Source: Xanthomarina sp. F2636L
GTDB lineage: Bacteria; Bacteroidota; Bacteroidia; Flavobacteriales; Flavobacteriaceae
Length of the DNA stretch: 64,000 nt
Assembly (NCBI RefSeq): GCF_026410195.1
Contig: NZ_JAPMLM010000069.1
Location: forward strand, 434,001-498,000
Direction: 5' to 3'
Notes under the pieces: generated by a model
Database searches by the model: none
Told to the model about the DNA's origin: nothing
What the model saw: the letters and a program-made list of their open reading frames with translations, nothing else
Shown here: positions 1,324 through 5,530 of the stretch, piece by piece
Position numbering within the stretch: position 1 is the first letter of the stretch
Layout of the letters: each line of letters starts with the position of its first letter
Position numbers and translations under genes: made by a program

Positions 1324-1353
1324 TTTGTTTTTTCATTTTATTAGCTACATTAG
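1324..1353 (+). promoter_or_regulatory. Candidate promoter of the aromatic operon leader
   Basis: TTTG at 1324-1327 and TACATTAG at 1346-1353 are separated by 18 bases. The Bacteroidota consensus is TTTG then TAnnTTTG at about 18-21 bases; the second box has one mismatch. Transcription would begin a few bases before the leader-peptide ATG at 1364. Confidence 0.4.
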
Positions 1354-1363
1354 CAGTCTGAAA

Positions 1364-1444
1364 ATGAAAGCAACATTGAATTTTGCATATTATAACTGGA
1401 ATTATTTCTTTTTTAACAGAAGAAACGAGACCTCGTATATGTAA
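1364..1444 (+). CDS. Aromatic leader peptide of the pheA operon (attenuator peptide)
   Basis: A 26-codon frame with ATG at 1364 and TAA at 1442-1444. Its middle reads FAYYNWNYFFF, giving four Phe, four Tyr and one Trp in 26 residues, with nine aromatic residues overall. It lies 82 bases upstream of pheA and is followed by a strong hairpin plus T-run at 1468-1500. A six-base segment at 1426-1431, overlapping the last codons of the peptide, is complementary to the 5' arm of that hairpin (1472-1477). This is the classic layout of a transcription attenuation leader: ribosome stalling at Phe/Tyr codons would free the 1426-1431 segment to block the terminator. The aromatic content and RNA geometry are seen directly; the mechanism is inferred. 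Confidence 0.8.
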   Translation: MKATLNFAYYNWNYFFFNRRNETSYM

Positions 1445-1477
1445 TTTTTATTAATAATACATGATATAAAAGTCTCG
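1426..1477 (+). promoter_or_regulatory. Predicted antiterminator pairing of the aromatic attenuator
   Basis: CGAGAC at 1426-1431 is the exact complement of GTCTCG at 1472-1477, which is part of the 5' arm of the downstream terminator. The two structures are mutually exclusive. Segment 1426-1431 falls within codons 21-23 of the leader peptide, so a ribosome reaching the leader stop would cover it, while one stalled at the YFFF codons (1403-1414) would leave it free. A small ACGA/TCGT self-complementary hairpin (1425-1436) also overlaps it. Confidence 0.65.
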
Positions 1478-1500
1478 ATGAAAATCGGGACTTTTTTTTT
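1468..1500 (+). terminator. Intrinsic terminator (attenuator) before pheA
   Basis: The arms 1468-1479 and 1484-1495 form a 12-bp stem containing one T-G pair, closed by a GAAA loop (1480-1483) and running into an uninterrupted T tract to 1500. It sits between the leader peptide and pheA on the coding strand, where a terminator makes sense only as a conditional one. Confidence 0.8.
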
Positions 1501-1526: not shown

Positions 1527-2354
1527 TTGATTAAAACTGTAGCCATACAAGGAGTAAAAGGATCATTCCATCATATTGTGGCTCAGCAATACTTTGGAAG
1601 TGGAGTAACATTAAAAGAATGTTTGACTTTTGATGAAGCAGTACAAAGCTTAGTTTCAGGATCGACAGATGCTGTTGTTATGGCCTTAGAAAATTCTATT
1701 GCTGGATCGATTATTCCTAATTATGCATTGATAGACACTCATAATTTGCACATAGTTGGGGAGCATTATTTAGATGTGCAACATCATTTAATGGCTTTGC
1801 CAAAGCAAGATATTAGTGATATTGTTGAGGTATTTTCTCATCCCATGGCTTTGTTACAATGCAAAGAGTTTTTTAAAAGGCATTCACATATTAAACTTGT
1901 GGAAGACAAAGATACAGCCGAAGTCGCCCAGCGAATTCAAAATAAAAACTTAAAAGGAGTGGCAGCTATAGCAAGTAAATTAGCTTCAGAATTATTTGAA
2001 TTAAACATCATATCAGAAAGTATCCAAACTATACGAAACAATGAAACACGATTTGCGATAATCAAAAGAGAAAATCATGAAATACCTCAGAAAGAGATAA
2101 ATAAAGCATCCATAAAATTCCAATTAGAGCACAAAAGAGGTAGTCTGGCAGCTATATTAAATGTTATGAGCGACTGTAAACTGAATTTAACCAAAATTCA
2201 ATCCTTACCAAAGATTGAAACTCCTTGGAAATATGCTTTTTTTGTGGATATCACTTTTAAAGATTTCGAAGATTATAAAAAAGCAAAATCCATTATGGAA
2301 ATCATGACCGAAGAATTTAAAATATTAGGAGAATATAAAAACACAAAACAATGA
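1527..2354 (+). CDS. pheA: Prephenate dehydratase
   Basis: Converts prephenate to phenylpyruvate in phenylalanine synthesis. The 275-residue protein has the bilobed dehydratase domain (about 1-185) with the catalytic TRF motif at 174-176, followed by an ACT domain (about 195-272) that in this family binds phenylalanine and inhibits the enzyme. There is no fused chorismate mutase; that activity is carried by the fourth gene of the operon. The start is a TTG codon, chosen because the translation IKTVAIQGVKGS from there matches the family N terminus and no ATG is available nearby. It begins about 27 bases after the attenuator T tract and overlaps the next gene by four bases. Confidence 0.93.
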   Translation: MIKTVAIQGVKGSFHHIVAQQYFGSGVTLKECLTFDEAVQSLVSGSTDAVVMALENSIAGSIIPNYALIDTHNLHIVGEHYLDVQHHLMALPKQDISDIVEVFSHPMALLQCKEFFKRHSHIKLVEDKDTAEVAQRIQNKNLKGVAAIASKLASELFELNIISESIQTIRNNETRFAIIKRENHEIPQKEINKASIKFQLEHKRGSLAAILNVMSDCKLNLTKIQSLPKIETPWKYAFFVDITFKDFEDYKKAKSIMEIMTEEFKILGEYKNTKQ

Positions 2355-3496
2355 TTGAAGCAGCGCAAAGATTGCAATCCATTGAAGAATACTACTTTTC
2401 GAAAAAACTTCGGGAAGTAAGATTGTTAGAAGCCAATGGCAAACCAATCATTAATTTAGGGATTGGGAGTCCGGATTTGCAGCCATCACAAAAAGTAATT
2501 ATAGCTTTAAACACCAGTTTAAACGATGCTCAAGCTAACCAATATCAAAGCTATCAAGGTTTGCCAGAACTACGGGAAGCTATGGTATCTTTTTATAGAG
2601 ATCAGTTTCAAGTGTTTTTAAGCCCAAACACAGAAGTATTACCACTTATGGGGAGCAAAGAGGGCATCATGCATATTTCAATGGCTTTTTTAAATCCCGG
2701 AGATCAGGTGCTTATTCCAAACCCAGGATACCCAACCTATGCCTCGGTTACAAGCCTAGTTGGGGCGAAGCCTGTTTTGTATAACTTAAATGAAGATAAT
2801 AATTGGATACCCGATCTAGAAATGCTGGAGGAAAAAGACTTGTCAAAAGTAAAATTAATGTGGATTAATTACCCTCATATGCCAACTGGAGCAGTTGCAA
2901 CTGAAGCCTTTTTTGTTAAGCTAGTAGCATTTGCAAAAAGACATCGGATTTTGATAGTGAATGATAATCCCTATGGTTTTATTTTGAACAACTCCCCTAG
3001 AAGTATTTTAAGTATTCCGGGAGCAAAAGATGTGTGTTTAGAACTAAATTCTTTAAGCAAAACTTTTAATATGTCTGGCTGGAGAATTGGGATGGTTTTG
3101 GGGAAATCGGATTATATAAATCATATTTTAAAAGTTAAAAGCAATATGGATTCTGGTATGTTTTATGGCATTCAAAAAGGTGCTATTGAAGCTTTAAAAT
3201 GCTCAAAGTTATGGTATGTAAGTTTGAATAATGTGTATGAAGAAAGGCGCAAATTAATTTGGCAATTAGCTGATAAATTAAACTGTTCGTATGATAAAAA
3301 TGCTGCAGGATTATTTGTTTGGGCAAAAACACCACCTTTTATAAAATCGGAAGAGTTTATCGACTTATTACTTAAAGAATATAACATTTTTATAGCTCCA
3401 GGCACTGTTTTTGGAAGTCAAGGTGAAGGGTATGTTAGGTTTTCACTTTGTGCGACTACAGACATTATAGAAGAAGCTATTGCTAGAATTAAATAA
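2351..3496 (+). CDS. Class I/II PLP-dependent aminotransferase, probably aromatic
   Basis: A 381-residue fold-type I aminotransferase. The PLP lysine is K237 in SLSKTFNMSGWRIG; D205 and Y208 in NDNPYG are the usual cofactor contacts, and a C-terminal YVRFSL arginine would bind the substrate carboxylate. The usual NPNNPTG loop reads NYPHMPTG (about 173-180), so the asparagine that normally contacts the PLP phenol oxygen is replaced. Its ATG overlaps the pheA stop (ATGA), indicating translational coupling. Sitting between prephenate dehydratase and prephenate dehydrogenase, it most likely transaminates phenylpyruvate and 4-hydroxyphenylpyruvate to phenylalanine and tyrosine. Substrate choice is inferred from context. 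Confidence 0.88.
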   Translation: MIEAAQRLQSIEEYYFSKKLREVRLLEANGKPIINLGIGSPDLQPSQKVIIALNTSLNDAQANQYQSYQGLPELREAMVSFYRDQFQVFLSPNTEVLPLMGSKEGIMHISMAFLNPGDQVLIPNPGYPTYASVTSLVGAKPVLYNLNEDNNWIPDLEMLEEKDLSKVKLMWINYPHMPTGAVATEAFFVKLVAFAKRHRILIVNDNPYGFILNNSPRSILSIPGAKDVCLELNSLSKTFNMSGWRIGMVLGKSDYINHILKVKSNMDSGMFYGIQKGAIEALKCSKLWYVSLNNVYEERRKLIWQLADKLNCSYDKNAAGLFVWAKTPPFIKSEEFIDLLLKEYNIFIAPGTVFGSQGEGYVRFSLCATTDIIEEAIARIK

Positions 3497-3498
3497 GG

Positions 3499-4350
3499 AT
3501 GAAAAACATATATATTATAGGAGTTGGATTGATAGGAGGAAGCATTGCCAAAGATGTTAAGAAACTGAATCCAGAGATTATTATTTTTGGGATTGATAAT
3601 AATGAAGTACATCTAGAGGAGGCTCTTTCACTAAAGTTCATAGATAAAAAAGCTACTTTTGATGATTTAGACCAAGCTGATTTAGTCATTGTTTCCATAC
3701 CAGTTGATGTTACAGAAATGTTACTGCCACAAATTTTAGATAAAGTCTCAGACGAAACGTTGGTAATAGATTCTGGATCAACTAAAGCAAGTATCTGTAA
3801 AGCAGTAGAGAATCATCCAAAACGACGAAATTTTTTAGCGACACATCCCATTGCTGGAACTGAATTTTCAGGGCCAAAAGCAGCCATGGAAGGTTTATTT
3901 GTAAACAAAACAAACATAATTTGTGAAATAGAAAAAACGGCTTTTAAATTGCAAGAACGCGCTTTAACTATTTTTAAAATTATGGGTATGAATATGCGCT
4001 ATATGAATCCAGATGCACATGATAAACACATTGCTTATGTATCACATTTATCTCATATTAGTGCGTTTATGCTAGGTAAAACAGTTATAGAGAAAGAAAA
4101 GAACGAACGAGATATTTTCGATTTAGCAGGAAGTGGATTTGCATCAACGGTTCGTTTGGCAAAAAGTTCGCCACAGATGTGGACCCCTATTTTTAAACAA
4201 AATAAAACAAATGTTATTGAAACTCTTGAAGAATATATAAGCAATCTTACTAAATTTAAAGAGTTTATGGAAGCTGATAATTTTGACGACATTTTTAATG
4301 AAATGGAGAATACAAATCATATTAAAAAGATATTAAACGGAATACAATAA
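3499..4350 (+). CDS. tyrA: Prephenate dehydrogenase
   Basis: Oxidative decarboxylation of prephenate to 4-hydroxyphenylpyruvate for tyrosine. The 283-residue protein starts with a Rossmann NAD(P) motif IIGVGLIGGSIA (about 4-16) and contains ATHPIAGTEFSGP near residue 115, which carries the family's catalytic histidine. It is a stand-alone enzyme without a fused chorismate mutase or ACT domain. Only two bases separate it from the upstream aminotransferase stop, so it is co-transcribed. A 97-base gap with an inverted repeat separates it from the DAHP synthase gene. Confidence 0.92.
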   Translation: MKNIYIIGVGLIGGSIAKDVKKLNPEIIIFGIDNNEVHLEEALSLKFIDKKATFDDLDQADLVIVSIPVDVTEMLLPQILDKVSDETLVIDSGSTKASICKAVENHPKRRNFLATHPIAGTEFSGPKAAMEGLFVNKTNIICEIEKTAFKLQERALTIFKIMGMNMRYMNPDAHDKHIAYVSHLSHISAFMLGKTVIEKEKNERDIFDLAGSGFASTVRLAKSSPQMWTPIFKQNKTNVIETLEEYISNLTKFKEFMEADNFDDIFNEMENTNHIKKILNGIQ

Positions 4351-4447: not shown

Positions 4448-5530
4448 ATGGAAAACAAAAAAGAACTAAAAAACTGGTTACATGCATTCAATCTAGAGCA
4501 TCCTCTAGTGATTGCAGGACCATGTAGTGCAGAAACCGAAGAACAAGTATTAACCATTGCTCATCAATTAAAAGCTAGTGACACAACTGTTTTAAGAGCT
4601 GGAATCTGGAAACCAAGAACGCGTCCAGGAAATTTTGAAGGAGTAGGAGCTTTAGGCTTAAAATGGTTGCAAAAAGCTAAAGCAGAAACTGGCTTAATGA
4701 CTGCAACAGAAGTTGCTAATGCCAATCATGTGGATTTGGCCATGCAACACGATGTGGATGTTTTATGGATTGGTGCCAGAACAACTGTAAGTCCGTTTAT
4801 AGTTCAGGAAATTGCTGAAGCTTTAAAAGGAACAGATAAAATAGTCTTGGTTAAAAATCCAGTAAACCCAGATTTAGCACTTTGGTTAGGTGCTGTAGAG
4901 AGATTTCATACGTCAGGAATAAATAATTTAGGGGTCATTCACAGAGGGTTTTCAACCTACGAAAAAACGAGATATAGAAACAATCCGGAATGGCAATTGC
5001 CCATTGATTTACAGAATCGGTTTCCAGATTTGCCACTTATTTTAGATCCGTCACATATTGCTGGTCGAAGAGATATTATTTTCGATTTGTGCCAAACGGC
5101 TTTAGATTTAAATTACGATGGCTTGATGGTAGAAACACACCATAATCCAGACAAAGCCTGGAGCGATGCATCGCAGCAAATTACACCAGAAACACTTATT
5201 CAATACACCAAAGATTTACGTATTAGAAAGGAAATTGGTGAAGCCGCAGAATTTAAAAATAAAATAAACACGTTGCGTACTCAAATAGATGTTATAGATC
5301 ATCAATTAATAGAAATGTTGGGCAAACGTATGAAAGTGGCTGATGATATTGGAGCTCTAAAAAAATCTCATAATGTAGCTGTTTTACAAACCAAACGTTG
5401 GAATGAGATTTTAGGAAAAATGATTCTTCAAGGAGAAGAAAAGAATTTAAGTGAAGAATTTATTTTACGTGTTTTTAAAGCAGTACATCAAGAGTCTATT
5501 AATCATCAAGAGAAAATTATTAATAGCTAA
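4448..5530 (+). CDS. Bifunctional DAHP synthase (type I beta) / chorismate mutase
   Basis: Catalyses the first committed step of the shikimate pathway and the chorismate-to-prephenate step. The N-terminal domain (about 1-265) is a type I beta DAHP synthase, with LVIAGPCSAE near residue 20, KPRTRPGNFEG near 55 and LDPSHIAGRRD near 200. The C-terminal 90 residues are an AroQ-type chorismate mutase, beginning LRTQIDVIDHQLIEMLGKRM. DAHP synthase with chorismate mutase at the C terminus is known in other Bacteroidota, where prephenate or chorismate binding at the mutase domain gives feedback control. As the last gene of the operon it supplies prephenate to both PheA and TyrA. Confidence 0.93.
   Translation: MENKKELKNWLHAFNLEHPLVIAGPCSAETEEQVLTIAHQLKASDTTVLRAGIWKPRTRPGNFEGVGALGLKWLQKAKAETGLMTATEVANANHVDLAMQHDVDVLWIGARTTVSPFIVQEIAEALKGTDKIVLVKNPVNPDLALWLGAVERFHTSGINNLGVIHRGFSTYEKTRYRNNPEWQLPIDLQNRFPDLPLILDPSHIAGRRDIIFDLCQTALDLNYDGLMVETHHNPDKAWSDASQQITPETLIQYTKDLRIRKEIGEAAEFKNKINTLRTQIDVIDHQLIEMLGKRMKVADDIGALKKSHNVAVLQTKRWNEILGKMILQGEEKNLSEEFILRVFKAVHQESINHQEKIINS

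Follow-up and report, generated by a model that had tools for sequence, protein, structure and literature searches.

The pheA leader of Escherichia coli is rich in Phe codons, has, as far as is known, no Tyr codon and is served by a Shine-Dalgarno site. Like the element described here, this attenuator (Phe_leader, RF01859) combines a short leader carrying cognate codons with mutually exclusive antiterminator and terminator hairpins in front of pheA. The element described here differs in that its leader mixes Phe, Tyr and often Trp codons, and in having, by prediction, a very short 5' untranslated region (UTR). The Rfam model RF01859 reaches 22.9 bits against the window (the whole stretch of 64,000 nucleotides that was analysed), below its gathering score of 55; on this score the element falls outside Phe_leader, yet it would work like one of its members. 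Amino-acid attenuators were reportedly predicted by Vitreschak et al. in 2004, including in Bacteroidetes/Chlorobi, likewise by a comparative approach.

In 2010, the authors of PMC2965389 knew, according to the available part of their article, of no leader-peptide system outside Proteobacteria and Actinobacteria. Leader-like small frames are mentioned in Bacteroides in the accessible text of PMC7366714, and the available parts of PMC2864571 and PMC9413887 hold nothing on a pheA leader element. The study of Guerin et al. 2021 (PMC9723704) concerns the same gene in the same family: its available text reports strong indications that amino-acid operons of Flavobacterium psychrophilum are preceded by leader-peptide attenuation, and elements before pheA and hisG that are also found in other Flavobacteriaceae and have no Rfam match, the pheA element being structured. 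The preliminary description of the present locus had called such control rarely described in Flavobacteriaceae, which is right in part only, as PMC9723704, in the portion available, had already flagged both the attenuation and the structured pheA element. The main text of that article, as far as available, gives no pheA leader sequence, antiterminator, covariation or spacing; these are resolved here and traced through the class. A search of the open-licence literature found no account of a Bacteroidia pheA leader peptide in sequence. New here are the anatomy, the covariation, the spacing rule, the class-wide reach and the rare tandem arrays; the kind of attenuator was already known.

Leader, predicted promoter and alternative hairpins before pheA

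The operon lies on the forward strand and opens with pheA, the gene of prephenate dehydratase (1527-2354, TTG start, Pfam PF00800), followed by a class I/II aminotransferase (2351-3496, PF00155), the prephenate dehydrogenase gene tyrA (3499-4350, PF02153 and PF20463), and a DAHP synthase fused to a chorismate mutase (4448-5530, PF00793 and PF01817). These Pfam matches bear out the earlier statement that the operon makes Phe and Tyr and supplies DAHP. Upstream, on the same strand, the leader peptide frame MKATLNFAYYNWNYFFFNRRNETSYM runs from the ATG at 1364 to the TAA at 1444, and contains 26 codons with nine aromatic residues, as previously described. The putative stalling region is its aromatic codon run FAYYNWNYFFF (1382-1414, forward strand), whose final Phe codon occupies 1412-1414. 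As in other leader-peptide attenuators, a short frame with a run of cognate codons, here Phe and Tyr, thus stands before an operon making these amino acids.

Between the leader and pheA lies an intrinsic terminator (1468-1500, forward strand), another hallmark of attenuators. Its arms AAAAGTCTCGAT (1468-1479) and ATCGGGACTTTT (1484-1495) enclose a GAAA loop (1480-1483) and lead into a T-run (1492-1500). The 12 pairs, including one G-U, have a predicted energy of -14.4 kcal/mol, and none of 200 shuffles is equally stable. The preliminary description had placed a 12-bp hairpin with a T-run at these positions and had recognized that CGAGAC, in codons 21-23 of the leader, complements its 5' arm. 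Both points are confirmed: CGAGAC, the 5' arm of the antiterminator (segment 2, 1426-1431, forward strand), pairs with GTCTCG (segment 3, 1472-1477, forward strand), a pairing that shows covariation. The extent of the antiterminator, however, had to be revised from this six-pair match to a hairpin in which the basal stem 1426-1431/1472-1477 carries an inner imperfect stem, with a predicted energy of -10.9 kcal/mol. Segment 3 is common to antiterminator and terminator and covaries with both partners. A further segment, TTGCATAT (segment 1, 1383-1390, forward strand), would pair, if not covered by a ribosome, with ATATGTAA (1437-1444, forward strand), which overlaps the leader stop codon.

The promoter expected upstream of a leader-peptide attenuator is present by prediction. 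A sigma-A-type promoter (1324-1353, forward strand) is predicted from TTTG at 1324-1327 and a -7 box TACATTAG at 1346-1353, which resembles TAnnTTTG, the flavobacterial promoter consensus given in the available text of PMC9723704. The transcript start is predicted at about 1358, which would leave a 5' UTR of some 6 nt. Among 76 homologous leaders, a full-score -7 box stands at most 70 nt from the leader in 57 (12.8% of shuffles), and 51 combine such a box with a predicted 5' UTR of 3-20 nt (2.9% of shuffles). The promoter statistics use this stricter box count only; a looser promoter count, which includes 74 of the 76, was discarded as uninformative, as 86.8% of shuffles pass the same threshold. 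These predictions are best read as a leader mRNA whose 5' UTR is very short.

AT-rich DNA contains many Phe and Tyr codons, and the whole arrangement might be an AT-rich intergenic frame that happens to precede the ordinary terminator of another transcript. The left-hand gene (355-1254) is encoded on the strand opposite to leader and terminator, and therefore the terminator does not serve it. When the region 1255-1467 is dinucleotide-shuffled 5000 times with the real terminator kept, an aromatic-dense frame (at least 7 of 12 codons) arises in 0.54% of the shuffles, and a G+C-rich helix with the terminator arm that matches the strength of the real helix is seen in 1.3%. The two occur together in only 0.02% (one of 5000), and in none of the 5000 with an additional spacing of 10-17 nt. 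Scoring of both strands of the window covered 22 terminator-like hairpins, of which the one before pheA is the only one preceded by an aromatic-dense frame (here at least 6 of 12 codons). In the dense aromatic clusters of the homologues, moreover, TTN codons encode Phe 348 times and Leu twice. With the class-wide conservation and covariation, these results make a chance origin extremely improbable.

Conservation and covariation across Bacteroidia

A layout of leader, antiterminator and terminator is found 5' of pheA in 76 of 88 pheA-bearing genomes of the class. PheA is present in 44 of 60 related genomes, 40 of which have the layout: 39 were found by a script looking for a terminator and an aromatic frame, and the last is L009, where leader and terminator lie more than 500 nt upstream of pheA, behind repeats. 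The layout is also present at 36 of another 44 loci from the family and class, comprising 33 accepted from the script and three (L058, L067, and L072) that, like L009, the script missed and that were accepted by eye; for L067 and L072, the terminators were entered into the script by hand. One locus listed by the script, L064, was rejected as a terminator without an aromatic leader. It is among the 12 genomes in which no layout was found within the 700-1500 nt read upstream, namely 1500 nt in L026, 800 nt in L035, L042 and L043, and 700 nt in L052, L056, L062, L064, L065, L068, L070 and L075. In L052 and L056, a long frame abuts pheA, and any leader would be further upstream.

The layout is likewise present in all of 80 named relatives, including Flavobacterium, Winogradskyella, Lacinutrix, Gelidibacter, Bizionia, Tamlana and Tenacibaculum, which are the best matches to the query rather than a sample of the class. 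The script found 79 of them, and the remaining one, L146, has its leader and terminator about 410-460 nt upstream of pheA. These named loci (L138-L217) may come from the same species as other rows and are excluded from the statistics. Both L009 and L146 contain, between terminator and pheA, repeated units with a short G+C-rich hairpin, which displace the attenuator more than 400 nt upstream.

Outside the class, where one genome with a match was sampled per family, one of 16 loci has a plausible aromatic leader, and another (L104) is readable for 281 nt only. The positive locus, L096 (G072), shows the aromatic frame MKNNYYTGFGFYYFYLTRPSCRD and then a terminator before a prephenate dehydratase gene. 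This leader, which was dropped before the tests on the 76 leaders, may reflect either an older origin or an independent invention.

The preliminary description had stated that a lack of conservation of the frame or of the two stems in close relatives would refute its reading, and had proposed aligning the region upstream of pheA orthologues. This refutation failed: the alignment reveals compensatory changes in both stems, and the frame and both hairpins recur across the family and class. It was built with MAFFT without structure, and the pairs scored were those of the window sequence. In the 44 family rows, pairing is seen in 88.6% of cells for the six antiterminator pairs, against 24.6-49.6% when slid by 1-3 columns, and in 97.7% for the eight terminator pairs, against 23.1-51.9%, differences to be read in the knowledge that a structure taken from one aligned sequence favours the real over the slid registers. 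Double changes that keep the pairing occupy 26 cells in four of the six antiterminator pairs (at most nine cells in slid registers) and 26 cells in six of the eight terminator pairs (at most five). The antiterminator that excludes the terminator is thus kept by compensatory changes, as expected for an attenuator. Over all 76 rows, the pairs form in 73.8% of cells for the antiterminator (slid, 32.2-53.1%) with 41 double-change cells, and in 92.2% for the terminator (slid, 29.2-51.9%) with 88. For the antiterminator in these 76 rows, one slid register reaches 27 double-change cells against the real 41, and the ten further pair types are not above the slid versions (6-14).

The helix between each leader and its own terminator has a mean score of 18.4, compared with 12.2 for swapped partners and 11.3 for shuffled leaders, and lies in the top 5% of its own shuffles in 55 of the 76 leaders. 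In the swap test, which used a crude definition of a different arm, 28 leaders beat 95% of the swapped partners, and the other 48 were equalled or beaten by at least 5% of them; it is because of this weakness that the structure-blind alignment was added. In 75 of the 76 leaders, the stretch from the arm to segment 3 is predicted to fold as the antiterminator, which has a median energy of -14.2 kcal/mol, against -14.3 kcal/mol for the terminator; both results are partly conditioned, as is arm placement, by the choice of the arm through complementarity. In L004, the script had picked an AT-rich helix, and the arm was reset to CGAGAC for the fold-energy, spacing and 1:2-helix tests. The 1:2 helix, formed by segment 1 and its partner, has a mean score of 16.5 against 13.1 for swapped partners and 12.8 for shuffled leaders, and is individually significant in only 27 of the 76.

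Codon-to-arm spacing, proposed mechanism and amino acids probably sensed

In the window, the first base of the final aromatic codon stands 14 nt before the arm (1412 to 1426). The corresponding distance, measured to the first G-C pair of the arm, is 10-17 nt in 70 of 76 leaders, with a median of 14, and falls outside this range in the other six; outside the family of the window it is 10-17 nt in 28 of 32, with a median of 12.5. These counts include related rows that are not independent and arms picked by complementarity, and the script could place the arm anywhere between a point 48 nt upstream of the leader stop and one 12 nt upstream of the terminator. Because this placement range is wide, the narrow 10-17 nt is not forced. 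With the ribosome footprint of E. coli, a ribosome holding the last aromatic codon in its A site would end just before the arm. The stalling codons of these 70 leaders are thus sited, by that footprint, to free the arm if the ribosome stalls and to cover it if the ribosome finishes. Relatives differ in whether the leader stop precedes or follows the arm, and in either position a ribosome at the stop codon would presumably cover the arm.

The preliminary description had read this geometry as ribosome-mediated attenuation, a reading now supported by a frame, alternative hairpins and a spacing that recur with compensatory changes. We conclude that the element is, with high probability, a ribosome-mediated transcription attenuator sensing Phe and Tyr, and possibly also Trp. 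Its frame, the covariation of both alternative hairpins, and its spacing are read directly from the sequence and its comparison, and from them we infer translation of the leader, coupling, stalling and a change in readthrough. Transcription would begin a short distance upstream of the leader, whose 26 codons a ribosome would translate behind the RNA polymerase. A shortage of charged tRNA-Phe or tRNA-Tyr would stall the ribosome within the aromatic run, and a stall even at the final Phe codon (1412) would just leave the arm 1426-1431 free. The free arm could then pair with 1472-1477, forming the antiterminator, and the operon would be transcribed. Under good supply, the ribosome would reach the stop codon and cover the arm, so that the terminator 1468-1500 would form and transcription would end. 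If no ribosome is present, the helix 1383-1390/1437-1444 would likewise favour termination.

Alternative hairpins are also used by systems in which a trans-acting RNA-binding protein or a ligand, as in riboswitches and T-boxes, switches the terminator, and the frame could be incidental to such a switch. In the Rfam scan of the window, no family reaches its gathering score, and the 13 weak matches with E values of at most 10 include neither a T-box nor a riboswitch. A switch of this kind would also have no need of the codon identity (Phe, Tyr) and the codon-to-arm distance that are conserved here, and we consider it highly unlikely. The same low probability is given to a small protein with a cellular function of its own and attenuation as a secondary role. 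There is a precedent in Sinorhizobium, where the leader peptide peTrpL acts in trans according to the available text of PMC7298713, but the present peptide differs widely between lineages in its sequence and length beyond the aromatic run, and its stop codon is found before or after the arm.

Another question concerns the amino acids sensed by the attenuator. The codons closest to the arm are often FFF, and the operon of L044 lacks tyrA and has two pheA-proximal leaders without Tyr, both of which would fit a device that senses Phe only, with neutral Tyr and Trp codons. Phe codons are found in all 76 leaders, Trp codons in 42 and Tyr codons in 75, with totals of 275 Tyr and 378 Phe codons, and this abundance of Tyr makes sensing of Phe alone rather unlikely. 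Tyr is also present in 12 of the 13 leaders whose operons have no tyrA match; these come from 42 operons compared over at most 5.5 kb, less at some contig ends. For the same reason, the idea that Tyr codons track the presence of tyrA in the operon was not supported.

The device is widespread in the class and very likely acts as a starvation sensor deciding between stop and continuation of transcription. A broader proposal, to which we give an even chance, is that a single ancestral Phe/Tyr attenuator controls the aromatic operon throughout the class Bacteroidia, working with Shine-Dalgarno-independent ribosomes, almost no 5' UTR and a codon-to-arm ruler of 10-17 nt, and that it was multiplied in some lineages to two or three serial units, upstream of pheA or of branched-chain operons, whose leaders share the amino acids in which they are rich. 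Such attenuation needs a ribosome close behind the RNA polymerase, and a covarying class-wide attenuator with a narrow codon-to-arm distance would therefore be evidence for coupling at transcript 5' ends; if the proposal is true, close transcription-translation coupling there is ancestral in the class. These bacteria lack Shine-Dalgarno sequences according to the available text of PMC9723704, and the pheA attenuator could serve as a ready reporter for coupling under such conditions. It also provides a regulatory annotation that Rfam lacks, and putative counterparts for His and Trp occur within the genus.

Candidate leaders of other operons and tandem arrays

Matches to hisG were found in seven of eight genomes of the genus, and all seven have a frame with a His run and a terminator in front. 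In the genome of the window, this is the candidate leader MTFIQSHHHHFHSGTQAS, followed by a terminator before hisG (L110, G000:C51). A TWWW frame likewise precedes a terminator at the seven chorismate-binding loci interpreted as trpE (L120-L126); the one from the genome of the window (L126, G000:C70) has the candidate Trp-run leader HTWWW. Upstream of the window lies a homoserine dehydrogenase gene, and a search for an attenuator in front of it detected no terminator in the 1.8 kb read. No ilvD was found in the genome of the window.

Tandem leader attenuators are known from Salmonella mgtCBR, where they sense two different signals according to the available text of PMC3641672. Like mgtCBR, the arrays found here would place two or more leader attenuators one after another on a single mRNA; in contrast to it, as far as that text goes, successive leaders in the pheA array of L044 and in the branched-chain arrays share the amino acids in which they are rich. 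L044 (G059:C25, 351-783), from the same order as the window, has three Phe-rich leader-terminator units in series upstream of pheA. Among genus-mates, L128 has two Ile-rich units in series upstream of ilvD, and L129 has three before an aminotransferase gene that precedes ilvD. In 30 ilvD loci of the family, the script detected two units in two loci, one in 11 and none in 17. Serial Ile-rich leader-terminator units, two or three in number, are also seen upstream of ilvD in L222 and L226.
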